Shown in pieces: positions 10,844-30,387 of a DNA stretch of 52,006 nucleotides; position 1 is the stretch's first letter, and each line of letters begins with the position of its first letter. The translations under genes and the position numbers were made by a program. The stretch comes from Verrucomicrobium sp. BvORR034 (lineage in GTDB: Bacteria; Verrucomicrobiota; Verrucomicrobiia; Verrucomicrobiales; Verrucomicrobiaceae): the NCBI RefSeq assembly GCF_000739635.1, contig NZ_BATQ01000138.1, positions 1-52,006 on the forward strand, read 5' to 3'. The notes under the pieces are model-generated. The model was given only the letters and a program-made list of their open reading frames with translations, was not told the origin of the DNA and made no database searches.

Positions 10844-10865
10844 CCGGCTGGGACAGCCGGACTAC
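10844..10865 (-). repeat. REP palindrome with GTAG head
   Basis: On the minus strand: GTAG, then CCGGCTG...CAGCCGG around a short loop, the same element as at 24976, 25088 and 25918. It lies about 75 bp before the stop-codon end of pyrC. Confidence 0.75.
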
Positions 10866-18307: not shown

Positions 18308-18346
18308 GTAGTTCGGCTGTCCTCTCCATCCTGAAAGCCGAATCGC
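18308..18346 (+). repeat. REP-like element, GTAG head with long loop
   Basis: GTAGTTCGGCTGTCCTC starts like the REP at 24976, but the pairing arm (AGCCGAA) is about 20 bp away at 18339-18345, giving a TTCGGCT...AGCCGAA hairpin. It lies in the divergent spacer between two genes. Confidence 0.5.
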
Positions 18347-23878: not shown

Positions 23879-23993
23879 CAAGTGACACAGGCATCCTGCC
23901 TGTGCGTTCCACCGGCGTCCCGCCGGTTTGCCTTTGCCCACATGTCCCCGGACGACCAGCTACTGTAGCGCAGATTGGTAATCGGCCCAGTCA
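23874..23993. repeat. Cluster of three short palindromes after DUF1552
   Basis: Three hairpins follow the DUF1552 stop: CACAGGCATCCTGCCTGTG (23886-23904), ACCGGCGTCCCGCCGGT (23911-23927) and GTAGCGCAGATTGGTAATC (from 23965). The first is preceded by GTAG in the stop-codon region. The third begins with GTAG directly and recurs at 51493. Confidence 0.65.
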
Positions 23994-24025
23994 CCGCTCT
24001 AAACTCGCCCCGACTCATATCGATC

Positions 24026-24235
24026 ATGAATTGGCCCAATCGTCTGGAATGGATGACCCTGGTCCTCACTCTGCTGGTGGCGGCAGTCATTGCCGCCCTG
24101 GCTTATTTTGCTCCGCTAGCAGCTGGTCTGTTTTTCTTGAGCCTGCTCGCGATGGCGGCGGCATCGAAGCGTTACCCGGTCGGGAAATGGGACCGACTGC
24201 TGTGGTTACTCCGCAACCTGCTCGCAGGGTGGTAG
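24026..24235 (+). CDS. Small two-helix membrane protein, unknown
   Basis: A 69-residue frame from ATG 24026 with two hydrophobic helices: TLVLTLLVAAVIAALAYFAP and GLFFLSLLAMAAA. A basic, tryptophan-rich C-terminus (KWDRLLWLLRNLLAGW) follows. No family is recognised. Composition supports a real small inner-membrane protein, but only length and hydrophobicity argue for it. Confidence 0.5.
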   Translation: MNWPNRLEWMTLVLTLLVAAVIAALAYFAPLAAGLFFLSLLAMAAASKRYPVGKWDRLLWLLRNLLAGW

Positions 24236-24339
24236 CAACGGGTCCAAAGGCGGTGTTAGACCTTGAGTTCCACGCACCTGACATGGGAAATCCACCTCAA
24301 AAGTTACCACCAACGGGCCAACCCTTGCCTTCGTGCCAT

Positions 24340-24951
24340 ATGCAGCGTCTCCTACCCCACTCTTGCTCACGAGACCTAAAATTCCTGGTGCGGCAAATTT
24401 TCACCATCACCTCAATCACCTCCGCACTCATTTCAGGAGGTTGCGCTACTCCTCCACAGATCAAAGACACTGCCTCGCTGGAAGGTGCCCAACACGCATT
24501 CTTCCCTGAACGCTATGAGCACACCGTCGGGGACTTCGTTCTTTCCCTTCCGATTGGCTACTACGAGTATACCATAACGAGATTGAAATTCGCTGAGCAC
24601 ATCCTGGCAGAAGGCACACCGAAACCTGTGACGGACCAGGAGCGATATCTCGCCCTCCCCTCGGATGCGCTGGCTCCTGCTCGGCATTTCCTGCTGCTGG
24701 ATCAACGCCACCTGCTCGTGTACAGCGAGGCCAAATCACTGGATGGAGGCTATCCTCCCTCTCTAGAAATACTTGAGCGCACCAGCGACGCAGGGTGGAC
24801 CGATGTGACGACTGCCACCGTGCCGAAATGGGCAAGAAGCCCCAACGCAGTGAAGTTTGGGCGGGGCCCTTCGTATGTCGAGGTCGTTGGGGATGATCAA
24901 GCCTCAAGGAAACTGCGCTGGAATGACAGCCGATTGCTTGAGATGAAGTGA
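24340..24951 (+). CDS. Probable lipoprotein of unknown function
   Basis: A 203-residue protein. From ATG 24340 there is a basic N-region, a hydrophobic core (FTITSITSALISGGCA) and Cys35 as probable lipid attachment site. The start is uncertain, since the leader is longer than usual and the frame is open upstream. The mature part mixes strands and loops (LSLPIGYYEYTITRLKFAEH, ARHFLLLDQRHLLVYSEAKS) with no known domain. It is followed by the REP pair and the RAYT transposase, which read the other way. Confidence 0.62.
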   Translation: MQRLLPHSCSRDLKFLVRQIFTITSITSALISGGCATPPQIKDTASLEGAQHAFFPERYEHTVGDFVLSLPIGYYEYTITRLKFAEHILAEGTPKPVTDQERYLALPSDALAPARHFLLLDQRHLLVYSEAKSLDGGYPPSLEILERTSDAGWTDVTTATVPKWARSPNAVKFGRGPSYVEVVGDDQASRKLRWNDSRLLEMK

Positions 24952-24975
24952 TCGCGATGTCTGCCGCCTCAGAAA

Positions 24976-25110
24976 GTAGTTCGGCTGTCCCAGCCGTTCA
25001 GTACGCCGGAGTGGCACATAAACATCACATCGGTGACGTCAAGAAAACTACAATGTGAAAAGATCGCGGAGCCACTCCGTTCACGCACCGGCTGAGGACA
25101 GCCGGACTAC
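24976..25110. repeat. Inverted REP pair (BIME-like) at the 3' end of the RAYT gene
   Basis: The left REP (24976-24996) reads GTAGTTCGGCTGTCCCAGCC on the plus strand. The right one (25088-25110) is in the opposite orientation, ending CCGGACTAC. They are separated by about 90 bp that contain a further inverted repeat (GGAGTGGC near 25009 and GCGGAGCCACTCC near 25068). The transposase stop codon TAG is the TAG of the right REP's GTAG head. Confidence 0.8.
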
Positions 25111-25781
25111 TCTCCTTCCGCACCCCGTGCAGATCTGTAGCAAGTATAGGATCCGTCATCGAGTCCGGCCTTTGCAGGATTCTCTGCAATGTAGCTCCGA
25201 TAGTGCGCATACTCTCGCTGATCCCTGACGATGCGATCATAGCTTTCTGCCTGCCAGAAGGATCCAGGTGCTTGACGATGATGGTTTATCCTTCTGGCAG
25301 AGTACTTTTTCAATGAAGTGAGGATTTCTTTGAGGACGTTTCCGCTACAGGGCTGCATCAACACATGCACGTGATTGGGCATGATGACGTAGTCTCCCAG
25401 AAGACACCGGCTTCCGTCACCGTGCTGCAACGCCTCCTCCACGATTTTGCGCGTAGATGACTCCTTTAACCAGCATCTGCCGTGACCCGCATCCAGCAGG
25501 CCATGGAACTCTGTTGAGAACTCCCTGTTGAAGGCTTTGCGATCCTCTGCGGAGAGAGACTGTATCGCCTCTCCCCATGGACGGCCGTCCGAAAACTTCA
25601 CCCCCTTGCATTCCAGCCAATGCTCACGCTTCCATCGGAACAAGGCTGCCACCTCTGCAGGAAGCGAGTCTGCAGTACGGAACGTGAGGAAATAGCAGAC
25701 CTCAGACTGCTCCCAATGCGGGAGCCTGCGACGCGTCACCATCGGATTTAGGTCGAAGTTGTAAAAGCGAAACCGCGACAT
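25107..25781 (-). CDS. REP-associated tyrosine transposase (RAYT, Y1/IS200-like)
   Basis: A 224-residue HUH single-strand transposase of the RAYT group. The metal-binding HUH motif is in MPNHVHVLMQP. A conserved aromatic block (SFWQAESYDRIVRD) precedes YRSYIAENPAKAGL, which is the C-terminal RAYT/Y1_Tnp signature and offers the catalytic tyrosine region. The N-terminus (RRRLPHWEQSEVCYFLTFRT) matches the first strand of Y1_Tnp. ATG 25781 (MSRFRFYNFD) was chosen; ATG 25742 is possible and the frame is open further upstream. RAYTs are domesticated single-copy relatives of IS200/IS605 transposases that act on REP palindromes. REPs lie on both sides of this gene, and one contains its stop codon. 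Confidence 0.92.
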   Translation of the reverse strand: MSRFRFYNFDLNPMVTRRRLPHWEQSEVCYFLTFRTADSLPAEVAALFRWKREHWLECKGVKFSDGRPWGEAIQSLSAEDRKAFNREFSTEFHGLLDAGHGRCWLKESSTRKIVEEALQHGDGSRCLLGDYVIMPNHVHVLMQPCSGNVLKEILTSLKKYSARRINHHRQAPGSFWQAESYDRIVRDQREYAHYRSYIAENPAKAGLDDGSYTCYRSARGAEGE

Positions 25782-25917
25782 GGAACACTCGATGCAATGC
25801 GATAGAGCAAATCGCAACGAGCAAATGGAGAGGGTGCCACATCCACTGAAAAGCGGCGGGCTCAGGAACGGCAAAGGAGCAGTCAGGCAAGAGTTCGCTA
25901 CGCGCTACGCTCACCCC

Positions 25918-25940
25918 CCGGCTGGGGACAGCCGGACTAC
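25918..25940 (-). repeat. REP palindrome with GTAG head, upstream of the RAYT gene
   Basis: CCGGCTG-GGGA-CAGCCGG followed by ACTAC. On the minus strand it is GTAG plus the hairpin, in the same orientation as the copy at the transposase stop codon, and lies about 140 bp before the transposase start. Confidence 0.8.
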
Positions 25941-25961
25941 GATCCCTGGCATGCAGCGATC

Positions 25962-25996
25962 AAAAAAAGACCGGGGAATACCCCGGTCTTTTTTGT
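25962..25996. terminator. Bidirectional terminator
   Basis: AAAAAAA, then AGACCGGGG-AATA-CCCCGGTCT, then TTTTTT: a strong perfect hairpin with runs on both sides. It would end the YHS-like transcript arriving on the minus strand and insulate it from the RAYT gene. Confidence 0.88.
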
Positions 25997-26043
25997 GGTC
26001 TGAAATTGGATTGCTGGGACCGCGTGGCGATGCCCCGCTGACC

Positions 26044-26250
26044 TTACTTCACCTTGTCAGCGTACTTGGCAGGATCCGCATCGAACTTCTTTTTGCAGTT
26101 GTTGCAGCAGAAGGCGATTTCCTTGCCGTTGTAGGTGGAGGTCACGTCTGTACGCGCCGGACGGGCACCGACAGGGCAGGTCTTGTTGACAGGGGCTGCG
26201 GAGGCGAAGCCAGCGACGGCAACGAAGGCGAGGGTAAGCAGAGTTTTCAT
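26044..26250 (-). CDS. Small secreted YHS-like cysteine protein (copy 1)
   Basis: A 68-residue exported protein: signal peptide (MKTLLTLAFVAVAGFASA), then a 50-residue domain with CPVGARPAR...YNGKEIAFCCNNCKKKF. The spacing of one CP motif, a GKE...FCC turn and CxxC resembles YHS/TRASH domains, which bind heavy metals such as copper in periplasmic sensors and ATPases. It is paralogous to the protein at 26518. A REP/RAYT segment follows, insulated by a terminator. The metal-binding role is inferred from cysteines alone. Confidence 0.8.
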   Translation of the reverse strand: MKTLLTLAFVAVAGFASAAPVNKTCPVGARPARTDVTSTYNGKEIAFCCNNCKKKFDADPAKYADKVK

Positions 26251-28477: not shown

Positions 28478-30211
28478 CTAGTCCACCACGATGGCGGGCA
28501 GGGAGGCGGAGACGAATTGCATGAGGGCATCCATGGACTGAAGCTCGCCCAAGGGATCTGTGTCCACCACACCCAGTTCCTTGTCTGGCAGGCGCATGAA
28601 GTAGGAGGCCATGCCCCAACGGTGGTTGAGGTTGAAGAGGATAGCGTCCCGGTAACTGATGAAGTTGCTCATCAGATAACTGGGCGTGCTGACGCCACTG
28701 GAGCCCTCATACCAGAAGATGTTGAGCCCCCAGGACCGGACGCGGACACCGGGAGCGGTCTCCTGATCACGGAAAACGCGCATGAGCGTGACTTTCTTGA
28801 ATCGGCCGTCCTTCATGGCGATGGGCACCTCCTGGGTGCTGGCGATGATCCAGCCCTGGTTGGGAAGGCAGATATCGGGCTGGTGCAGGCTCTTTTTGGC
28901 CGGGCCGCTCATGACCAACGTGCCGAGGATCTGTCGCTGGCCATTGCCATAGACGCGACGGTCCAACTTGACCCCAGGCTCGAAAATGGAGGCCTCCTTG
29001 GCCGTCATGGTGAGCTGCATGCTCTGGTAGCTGTCCACCATGGCAGGCAGCTCCATTTTCAGGCCGGGCTCCGCGAGGGTGGGAGCAGTGGGAGTGGTCC
29101 AGCATAGGACGATCCCCACCAGCGCCAACGCGACCGCAGCACCAGACTTCACGAGCGCGGCGTTGAAGCGCTCCTCCGTGCGACCGCTGGTAACAGCATC
29201 CCCTTCCGCACCCGCCCAGAGCCGCAAGCGGTTCCAGTGGCGCCCCTCCAGCAGCGTCGCGAGTCCGAACATGCCTGCCAAAGCGACGCCGAAGACCATG
29301 AACCCGGCCAAAAGGTGAAAGGCGGAGTCCACCTGCTTGCCGTCCACCTGACGCCCCACGGCGAACTCCTGGCCAAACCACAGGGAGCCCACAGCGAGCA
29401 TGAGCAGGCGGAACACATTTCCCGCCACGGCCAGCGGGATCGTACTGGCCGCCAGCAGAAGCCGGGGGCCGGTGCGACGCAGGCTGAGATACCCATAGAG
29501 CACCCCTACCATCATCAATGCGTACAGGGAGCGCATGCCGCTGCAAGAGTCGGACACGTCAAAGGTGAAGGAAGCGCCCTGCTTGAGCCCGGTGGCAAAG
29601 TTCGCCGCCGACTGGACCGTGGACCCCTCCCGCACCACTTCCACACCAGTCCACGAGAGGATCTGGCAGGCGATCTGGGCGGTGGGGATCTTCAACTTGG
29701 CAGCCAGCAGGCTGTCCAGAGGGAAAAATGGCCAGGCAAAGGCGAGAAACAACCAGGGGAAGAACAGCGCCCGCATCCACGCGGTGCCCGCCAGGAGCAA
29801 CACCAAGCCTGCCACGGCAAGCTGGAGAGCGGCAAACCCGAGGTACCCGGTGTCCACCTTGTAGCCGAGCCAGTAGCAGATCACCGCCAGCCCGAGCACG
29901 ACCGCTCCGGACCAAGAGCCGGCGACGGGCAGGCGGGCCAGCGTATCCCGCACCCGGTACACGAGGAACCCGACGATAAAGGGGACGAACAGGCAGAACT
30001 GCCACTCGGCATTGTCCGCCAGATTGAGCACCTTGTACCAGCCTTCCAGCACGCTGCCGCGCCGGGCGAACTGCCAATGCTGGTACGGCCAGATGGCAAA
30101 GAGCACAATCATGACCCCCAGCCCAGTGCCCAACGCCAGCCACGGCACACGACGGCCCTGCTGCACAGCAGGCGATAGCTTGGTGTCAAGGGCAGTGGAG
30201 GCGGGGTTCAT
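28478..30211 (-). CDS. Exosortase fused to an EpsI-like C-terminal domain
   Basis: A 577-residue polytopic membrane transpeptidase that cleaves a C-terminal sorting signal (PEP-CTERM or related) from exported proteins. The exosortase half (about 20-340) has the proposed catalytic triad: Cys223 in SDSCSGMRSLYALMM, Arg268 in GNVFRLLML and His299 in SAFHLLAGFMVF. From about 365 to the end is a soluble EpsI/DUF3485-like domain containing PAKKSLHQPDICLPNQGW. Exosortase-EpsI fusions belong to exopolysaccharide-linked sorting systems. ATG 30211 was chosen because it starts just before the first helix. No protein with a recognisable CTERM tail is encoded in this window, so its substrates must be elsewhere. 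Confidence 0.92.
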   Translation of the reverse strand: MNPASTALDTKLSPAVQQGRRVPWLALGTGLGVMIVLFAIWPYQHWQFARRGSVLEGWYKVLNLADNAEWQFCLFVPFIVGFLVYRVRDTLARLPVAGSWSGAVVLGLAVICYWLGYKVDTGYLGFAALQLAVAGLVLLLAGTAWMRALFFPWLFLAFAWPFFPLDSLLAAKLKIPTAQIACQILSWTGVEVVREGSTVQSAANFATGLKQGASFTFDVSDSCSGMRSLYALMMVGVLYGYLSLRRTGPRLLLAASTIPLAVAGNVFRLLMLAVGSLWFGQEFAVGRQVDGKQVDSAFHLLAGFMVFGVALAGMFGLATLLEGRHWNRLRLWAGAEGDAVTSGRTEERFNAALVKSGAAVALALVGIVLCWTTPTAPTLAEPGLKMELPAMVDSYQSMQLTMTAKEASIFEPGVKLDRRVYGNGQRQILGTLVMSGPAKKSLHQPDICLPNQGWIIASTQEVPIAMKDGRFKKVTLMRVFRDQETAPGVRVRSWGLNIFWYEGSSGVSTPSYLMSNFISYRDAILFNLNHRWGMASYFMRLPDKELGVVDTDPLGELQSMDALMQFVSASLPAIVVD

Positions 30212-30387
30212 GGCGGAAGCATAACATGCGGGTACCCGGGGTACATTGGCAACTTTCAACTCGCCAAAATGCGGGAACTCCCTATCTTTCCTCCCGGTTA
30301 CGTCCGGTCCGGTCTCTCAGGAACCCGCCCTTACGGCGTTGCCTGTCTGATTTCCCTTTTCGTCCCGTTATCCCCCCTTCCCCACGC

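Follow-up and report, generated by a model that had tools for sequence, protein, structure and literature searches.

A RAYT transposase gene of Verrucomicrobium sp. BvORR034 whose stop codon lies in the GTAG head of a flanking REP, and the recurrence of this overlap among related RAYTs

The REPtrons of Escherichia, Stenotrophomonas, Marinomonas and Pseudomonas comprise hundreds of REPs. A GTAG REP is defined by a GTAG or GTGG lying 0-2 nt before a hairpin, and in E. coli the residues that contact the GTAG are W94, Q95 and R104 (PMC6006769). RAYTs from three genera were reported to cleave single-stranded REPs, with a guide role for the GTAG (PMC8266576). According to Di Nocera 2013 (PMC3733652), GTAG REP termini often supply the TAG stop to flanking ORFs, and Opitutus terrae (Verrucomicrobia) is highly enriched in GTAG repeats; in the same paper, the Figure 8 legend mentions flanking sequences that overlap a transposase gene at either its 5′ or its 3′ end. 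Nunvar 2010 places REPs directly behind the rayt stop or at a very short distance from it and describes four cases in which the rayt 3′ end is part of a BIME, and Quentin 2018 (PMC6006769) reports REPs that interrupt subclass 2.4 genes in frame, with no frame loss. Judging from the available text of these three papers, a stop codon inside a REP thus belongs to an already known kind, and no count of RAYT stops inside REPs was found in the accessible text of the open literature searched.

The window analysed here is a stretch of 52,006 nt from Verrucomicrobium sp. BvORR034. Its frame at 25781-25107 (minus strand) encodes an intact RAYT (REP-associated tyrosine transposase) of 224 aa, counted from the ATG; an alternative, longer frame with a TTG start extends to 25874. 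The predicted protein has an HUH motif (H137/H139), the residues W176, Q177, D182, R183 and R186, and a catalytic-type tyrosine, Y197. In an alignment of 30 sequences H137, H139, W176, D182, R186 and Y197 are invariant and Q177 is nearly so, while the spacing of W176, Q177 and R186 matches that of E. coli W94, Q95 and R104. The earlier note had read this gene as a RAYT with GTAG REPs, and this assignment is borne out by a match to Pfam Y1_Tnp (31.6 bits, above the cut-off of 23) and by the fold of the protein; against the NCBIfam equivalog NF047646 (REP_Tyr_transpos) the RAYT scores 67.7 bits, under the curated cut-off of 80. A sequence search of the PDB gave no match at E 0.01, so a fold search was used instead. 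The AlphaFold2 model (41 sequences, mean pLDDT 92.5) has a RAYT fold: its best PDB match is 4ER8 chain A, the structure of a RAYT in complex with a REP hairpin, at E 1e-5, 12% identity and a TM score of 0.58 normalised by target length. A single RAYT of this type is present in the genome, alongside two other homologues (C35 and C154) that are 40-43% identical to it, and the best named relatives of the protein, among the best 80 of 112 loci, belong to Verrucomicrobiota. A search of 24900-26100 for sigma-70-like promoters gave none, where shuffled sequence has 0.5 on average. Elsewhere in the window, 28478-30259 (minus strand) encodes a 593-aa protein with an Exosortase_EpsH domain (138.5 bits) followed by DUF3485 (31.4 bits).

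The frame, its stop and the three REPs around it, which begin at 24976 (plus strand), 25110 (minus strand) and 25940 (minus strand), were read from the sequence just as they had been described before. The 3′ REP, GTAGTCCGGCTGTCCTCAGCCGG, occupies 25088-25110 (minus strand) and has a 7-bp stem and a 4-nt loop. Bases 2-4 of this REP are the RAYT stop codon (TAG, 25109-25107, minus strand), which confirms that the stop is the TAG of the GTAG head, and the stem begins 1 nt past it. The distal arm, GTAGTTCGGCTGTCCCAGCCG (24976-24996, plus strand), is inverted relative to the 3′ REP, and the two delimit a 135-nt inverted unit at 24976-25110 with GTAG at both outer ends, so that the inverted pair claimed at the 3′ end of the gene is also present. 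Two inverted REPs here form a recurring, REPIN-like unit: one full-length relative was found among the 37 loci searched (L001-L037), at G000:C189:46058-46190, which matches at 71.5% over 137 columns and differs in its flanks, and many other REP sites have half-units. Folded as RNA together with short flanks (161 nt), the pair gives a single hairpin of -82.7 kcal/mol (z -6.1; 200 shuffles, mean -53.7, sd 4.7). It also includes a weak terminator-like hairpin at 25067-25079 (minus strand), the only one in 24900-26100, where the shuffle mean is 1.1. The 5′ REP, GTAGTCCGGCTGTCCCCAGCCGG (25918-25940, minus strand), has the same orientation as the RAYT; an upstream REP had been claimed at 140 bp from the start, and it does exist, ending 136 nt before the ATG. 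A further copy at 10844-10865 (minus strand) is the stop of no callable gene, and a degenerate one at 18308-18322 (plus strand) consists of the head and 5′ arm, without the matching 3′ arm (second hairpin half).

The genome-wide count proposed in the earlier note reveals that the REP is over-represented. The 15-mer GTAGTYCGGCTGTCC has 26 exact copies in the 8.58 Mb genome, against 0 for the reversed control, and the 23-mer REP, with up to 3 mismatches, has 27 sites, also against 0. These lists have 19 sites in common (hand count), which gives 34 distinct REP sites in 8.58 Mb, a family of modest size. Within the window the same 23-mer pattern occurs 2 times, against 0 in 100 shuffles; the shorter loop of the arm at 24976 puts that arm outside the pattern. 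With a GTAG 0-2 nt ahead of a hairpin and this over-representation, the repeats are GTAG REPs. We accept just one of the 26 exact copies as a gene stop, the one at the RAYT. Two further frames end on the TAG of exact copies: one of 476 codons (L032), judged spurious by eye and discarded as a gene, and one of 151 codons (L012), which overlaps a longer ORF. Three copies lie in tandem at 145-nt steps at G000:C116:31804-32116.

The repeats were also counted in 68 same-family genomes, with one degenerate 15-mer spanning three stem variants. The genome of the window (G000) has 28, of which 26 are the GGCTGTCC variant and 2 another; G001, whose RAYT is 53% identical, has 20 (12 GGATGTGC and 8 GGCTGTCC), and G066, with a RAYT 52% identical, has 13 GCCTGTCC. 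In each of these three genomes the RAYT itself is flanked by the predominant variant. G003 has 10 copies, G067 has 2, and the remaining 63 genomes have 0 or 1 (reversed control, 0-2). The stem variants change on both sides with the pairing kept (CCGGCTG/CAGCCGG, CCGCCTG/CAGGCGG and CCGGATG/CATCCGG). The earlier note had allowed that genomes with a related RAYT might have no such REPs; they do have them, and across the 68 genomes the variants go with the clade of their RAYT. The 10 copies in G003 are scattered and this genome has no close homologue of the window RAYT (best 42%), which fits a loss of the RAYT, yet counts against a strict RAYT-REP link. At the closest RAYT, in G001 at a different location (L038), the REP begins 25 nt past a TGA stop. 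A precise empty site for the window RAYT was sought in G001 and G003 and none was readable: blocks on both sides align, but the interval ~23987-25962 is replaced by largely unrelated sequence (about 2060 nt in G001, including a 200-nt stretch that matches at 70%, and 1130 nt in G003), which makes the junction unreadable. The second RAYT of the window's genome (L037, on C35) is flanked by a different hairpin repeat, CGGCGGTTTGTGCTTGCACAACCGCCG, with four copies in 3.6 kb (L037 1365-1391, 2191-2217, 2398-2424 and 2718-2744), which suggests one REP family per RAYT.

To determine how common the stop overlap is, we surveyed 120 RAYT loci (L035-L154) out of a larger number of same-family matches, 115 of them with a readable 3′ end. 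Five loci with a truncated 3′ end were left out (L062, L081, L107, L127 and L140; four are long fused frames), and the fused frames L036, L041 and L042 were kept and scored at the stop of their NUDIX part. The stop context is GTAG in 34 of the 115 RAYTs and another in 81. At 20 of the 34 GTAG stops (20 of all 115 RAYTs) a hairpin starts no more than 3 nt downstream, against 1.35% of GTAG stops when the 40 nt after the stop are shuffled. Between -150 and +200 of the stops there are 36 GTAG-hairpins, 20 placed exactly on the stop, 4 upstream and 12 downstream. The hairpins vary by clade (e.g. CCAGTTGC-gcc, CTTCGAGT-ggc and CATCTCG-ctccgt). On a FastTree tree of the 115 RAYTs, 11 changes account for the overlap label, 9 of which are imposed by starred branches, compared with 18.8 for shuffled labels; on this sequence tree the overlap appears clustered, yet gained or lost several times. 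Of 112 named relatives, the best 80 provided 78 usable loci, with 25 GTAG stops, 18 of them followed by a hairpin; the named loci with the overlap include Verrucomicrobia, Pontiellaceae, Planctomycetes, Chloroflexi and Hymenobacter.

As a control we used 414 non-RAYT ORFs of at least 150 codons, taken from the window and from all loci except L075-L154, a set made impure by spurious frames and many RAYT neighbours; 65 of them end in GTAG and 21 in GTAG with a hairpin. The RAYTs exceed this control (20/115 vs 21/414, p 8e-5), with a p value that overstates the significance, since related RAYTs are not independent. Several of the control ORFs with the overlap are genes adjoining a RAYT and closed by the REP there (e.g. 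L047, L057, L066 and L199). The stop overlap recurs in many RAYTs and is not RAYT-specific. A reading of the merger of gene and REP as special to this gene is therefore not supported, REP heads also ending non-RAYT genes, and the description of the phylum as one with little-described REP/RAYT systems is not quite right either, the available text of Di Nocera 2013 (PMC3733652) having already called Opitutus terrae rich in GTAG repeats.

The locus is, with good confidence, a REPtron, in which the RAYT is bordered by the REPs that it most likely recognises. This reading is based on the intact HUH/Tyr motifs, the RAYT fold, the REP family of a few dozen members and the 135-bp pair at the 3′ end; the NCBIfam score under the cut-off, the small size of the REP family and the 81 of 115 RAYTs with another stop context count against it. 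By analogy with the RAYTs already studied, the protein would bind the single-stranded GTAG-hairpin, with the GTAG as recognition and guide motif, and would cleave and join such REP strands, so that REPs and pairs could move. We infer on these grounds that the window RAYT probably mobilises these REPs. The stop overlap most likely arises because the GTAG itself is the border of the element. In one of the three frames, a unit bordered in this way could adjoin a gene without harm: if a REP or a pair lies directly against the final codons and in phase with them, its TAG would close the frame, or would coincide with a GTAG stop already there. An insertion whose TAG closes the frame would be harmless and persist, and the RAYT, as the gene most often beside its own REP, would show the overlap most. 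A further likely effect is on translation: with the hairpin 1 nt past the stop, inside the 15-nt range in which E. coli REPs were reported to stall ribosomes (PMC12306157), the RAYT may be translated weakly because of its own REP. The coincidence of stops with REP heads, above chance in RAYTs and in some of their neighbours, provides a testable rule.

A comparison of filled and empty sites can tell whether the GTAG is the element's own or its landing site, which bears on how REPs spread. We traced two neighbour genes through 48 genomes of another genus, calling the loci REP-bearing or REP-less by eye. The first is a sigma-factor-like gene, on which Pfam sigma models score just under their cut-offs, with matches in 35 of the 48 genomes; 30 loci were examined (L235-L264) and 17 have a REP hairpin directly at the stop. 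Fourteen of these 17 end in GTAG and the other three in TAA with the hairpin kept, whereas 1 of the 13 REP-less loci ends in GTAG. Close REP-less proteins end in ALR-TAA or ALRGS-TGA, compared with ALRK-TAG in the REP-bearing ones, and a RAYT lies within the fetched flank at 10/17 REP-bearing and 0/13 REP-less loci. This pattern favours the REP donating the TAG, although the K-TAG ending may be older than the insertion. The second, an esterase-like gene (BD-FAE), gave 21 loci, 19 of them usable after L296 and L300, whose frames run on, were set aside; L290 has an internal stop. Here the gene ends in GTAG at 3/3 REP-bearing and also at 8/16 REP-less loci (all eight AAG TAG), a pattern that favours reuse of a pre-existing GTAG and contests donation by the REP. 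The two genes point in different directions, the sigma-factor-like one suggesting donation of the TAG by the REP and the esterase-like one reuse of a GTAG.

It is conceivable, if somewhat improbable, that reuse is the explanation for the overlap: RAYT elements would settle beside an existing GTAG, an in-frame GTAG stop would be the safest site, and the stop would be the gene's own. Such settling would account for the REP-less esterase-like orthologues that end in GTAG, and the stop context it needs is already common (65/414 control ORFs). It does not account for the difference between the REP-bearing and REP-less sigma-factor-like loci (14/17 vs 1/13), nor for REP pairs that carry the motif at both outer ends, though one end alone meets the sigma-factor-like gene, and the GTAG is treated as a guide inside the element in the available text of PMC8266576.

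Another possibility, which we consider doubtful, is that the hairpin at the stop is kept for regulation, because it throttles translation of the RAYT or because the RAYT binds the GUAG-hairpin of its own mRNA. The hairpin begins 1 nt past the stop and the pair would form the -82.7 kcal/mol hairpin in the mRNA strand; in E. coli, REPs within 15 nt of a stop were reported to stall ribosomes (PMC12306157). Regulation of the RAYT leaves unexplained both the 81 of 115 same-family RAYTs that have no GTAG stop and the same overlap in non-RAYT neighbours, and it can be compatible with the REPtron. Chance adjacency in a REP-bearing genome is very improbable, even though a TAG beside a frame is in phase one third of the time and in the window's genome a convincing stop is found at just one of the 26 exact copies, since 20 of the 36 nearby GTAG-hairpins lie at one single offset and the overlap recurs over many clades and phyla.

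Several RAYT homologues lie in very long frames, and such nested in-frame RAYTs are more surprising than the stop overlap. In G066 and G012, which belong to two genera, a motif-complete RAYT is found in frame inside leuS (leucyl-tRNA synthetase), after the editing-domain segment (L273:2545-5850 and L276:3004-6408, both plus strand); it starts just past the segment AVPAHDERDFEFA, and the frame continues to the end of the enzyme. Each nested leuS is the only one in its genome over the TIGR00396 cut-off, among the matches listed (to about E 6e-27). The RAYTs are bounded by inverted REP-like ends, which in G012 are 26 bp long and perfect, with an element of 678 nt, a multiple of 3. The two insertions begin about 11 codons apart; identity between the two copies is 73% in the host parts and 49% in the RAYT parts. 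A hairpin with the same core is clearly enriched in G066 (47 vs 2 in the reversed control), less so in G012 (21 vs 7) and not in G063 (3 vs 14); the counts are 3 vs 1 in G067 and 7 vs 3 in G013. Nested in-frame RAYTs with hairpin-encoded linkers are also found in hsdR (type I restriction HsdR, G066; L274:4005-7883, plus strand) and in an alcohol dehydrogenase / GFO-IDH-MocA protein (G023; L275:2690-5635, minus strand). RAYT and NUDIX form single frames in five genomes of three genera (G000, G001, G003, G066 and G015), fused via a palindromic linker (L036:1465-2772, plus strand; also L041, L042, L277 and L278); the fusion in the window's genome is the C154 homologue. At the junction of three same-genus copies the sole indel seen is of 3 nt, with the frame kept. 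Most of these genomes being in many contigs, the nested RAYTs may be misassemblies, a caveat that is countered by the leuS case being common to two genera. No paper that links a RAYT to leucyl-tRNA synthetase came up in a literature search, and a broader search gave none that fits. If real, a RAYT inside leuS would be a case of a transposase that lives on within an essential enzyme.

These frames lead us to a tentative proposal, more speculative than the REPtron itself, that RAYT-REP units may form mobile elements compatible with translation. Each GTAG border would close the frame of a flanking gene with TAG or, with no in-frame stop, be read through as a peptide linker, and the RAYT may also bind the GUAG-hairpin that ends its own mRNA. 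If this is true, a RAYT could be maintained at the ends of genes and even within essential enzymes, where the nested transposase would be produced as one domain of its host and thereby be protected from loss.

The window locus resembles the REPtrons and RAYTs (TnpA-REP) of Escherichia, Stenotrophomonas, Marinomonas and Pseudomonas in its HUH-Tyr motifs, its 4ER8 fold and its flanking, genome-recurrent, GTAG-headed hairpins. In contrast to those REPtrons, the RAYT scores under the NCBIfam cut-off (67.7 vs 80), its 224 aa include a long stretch ahead of the HUH motif, and the genome has a few dozen REPs. Compared with the available text of Di Nocera 2013 (PMC3733652), which has no RAYT-stop count or empty-site comparison, we here provide counts of 20/115 and 18/78. 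The NHVH, WQ and YIxxNP-type motifs, compared by eye, are like those of TnpA-Y1 subclass 2.4 (Quentin 2018, PMC6006769), but unlike the subclass 2.4 cases reported there, the window REP ends the gene and does not interrupt it. In subclasses 2.5 and 2.7 the same paper describes the changes E100 to D and H101 to R, and the RAYT has D and R at these positions. As in the REPINs described by Bertels and Rainey 2011 (PMC3116915), the inverted REP pair is one hairpin-forming unit with a relative elsewhere, here of 135 nt and with one full-length relative among the loci compared.
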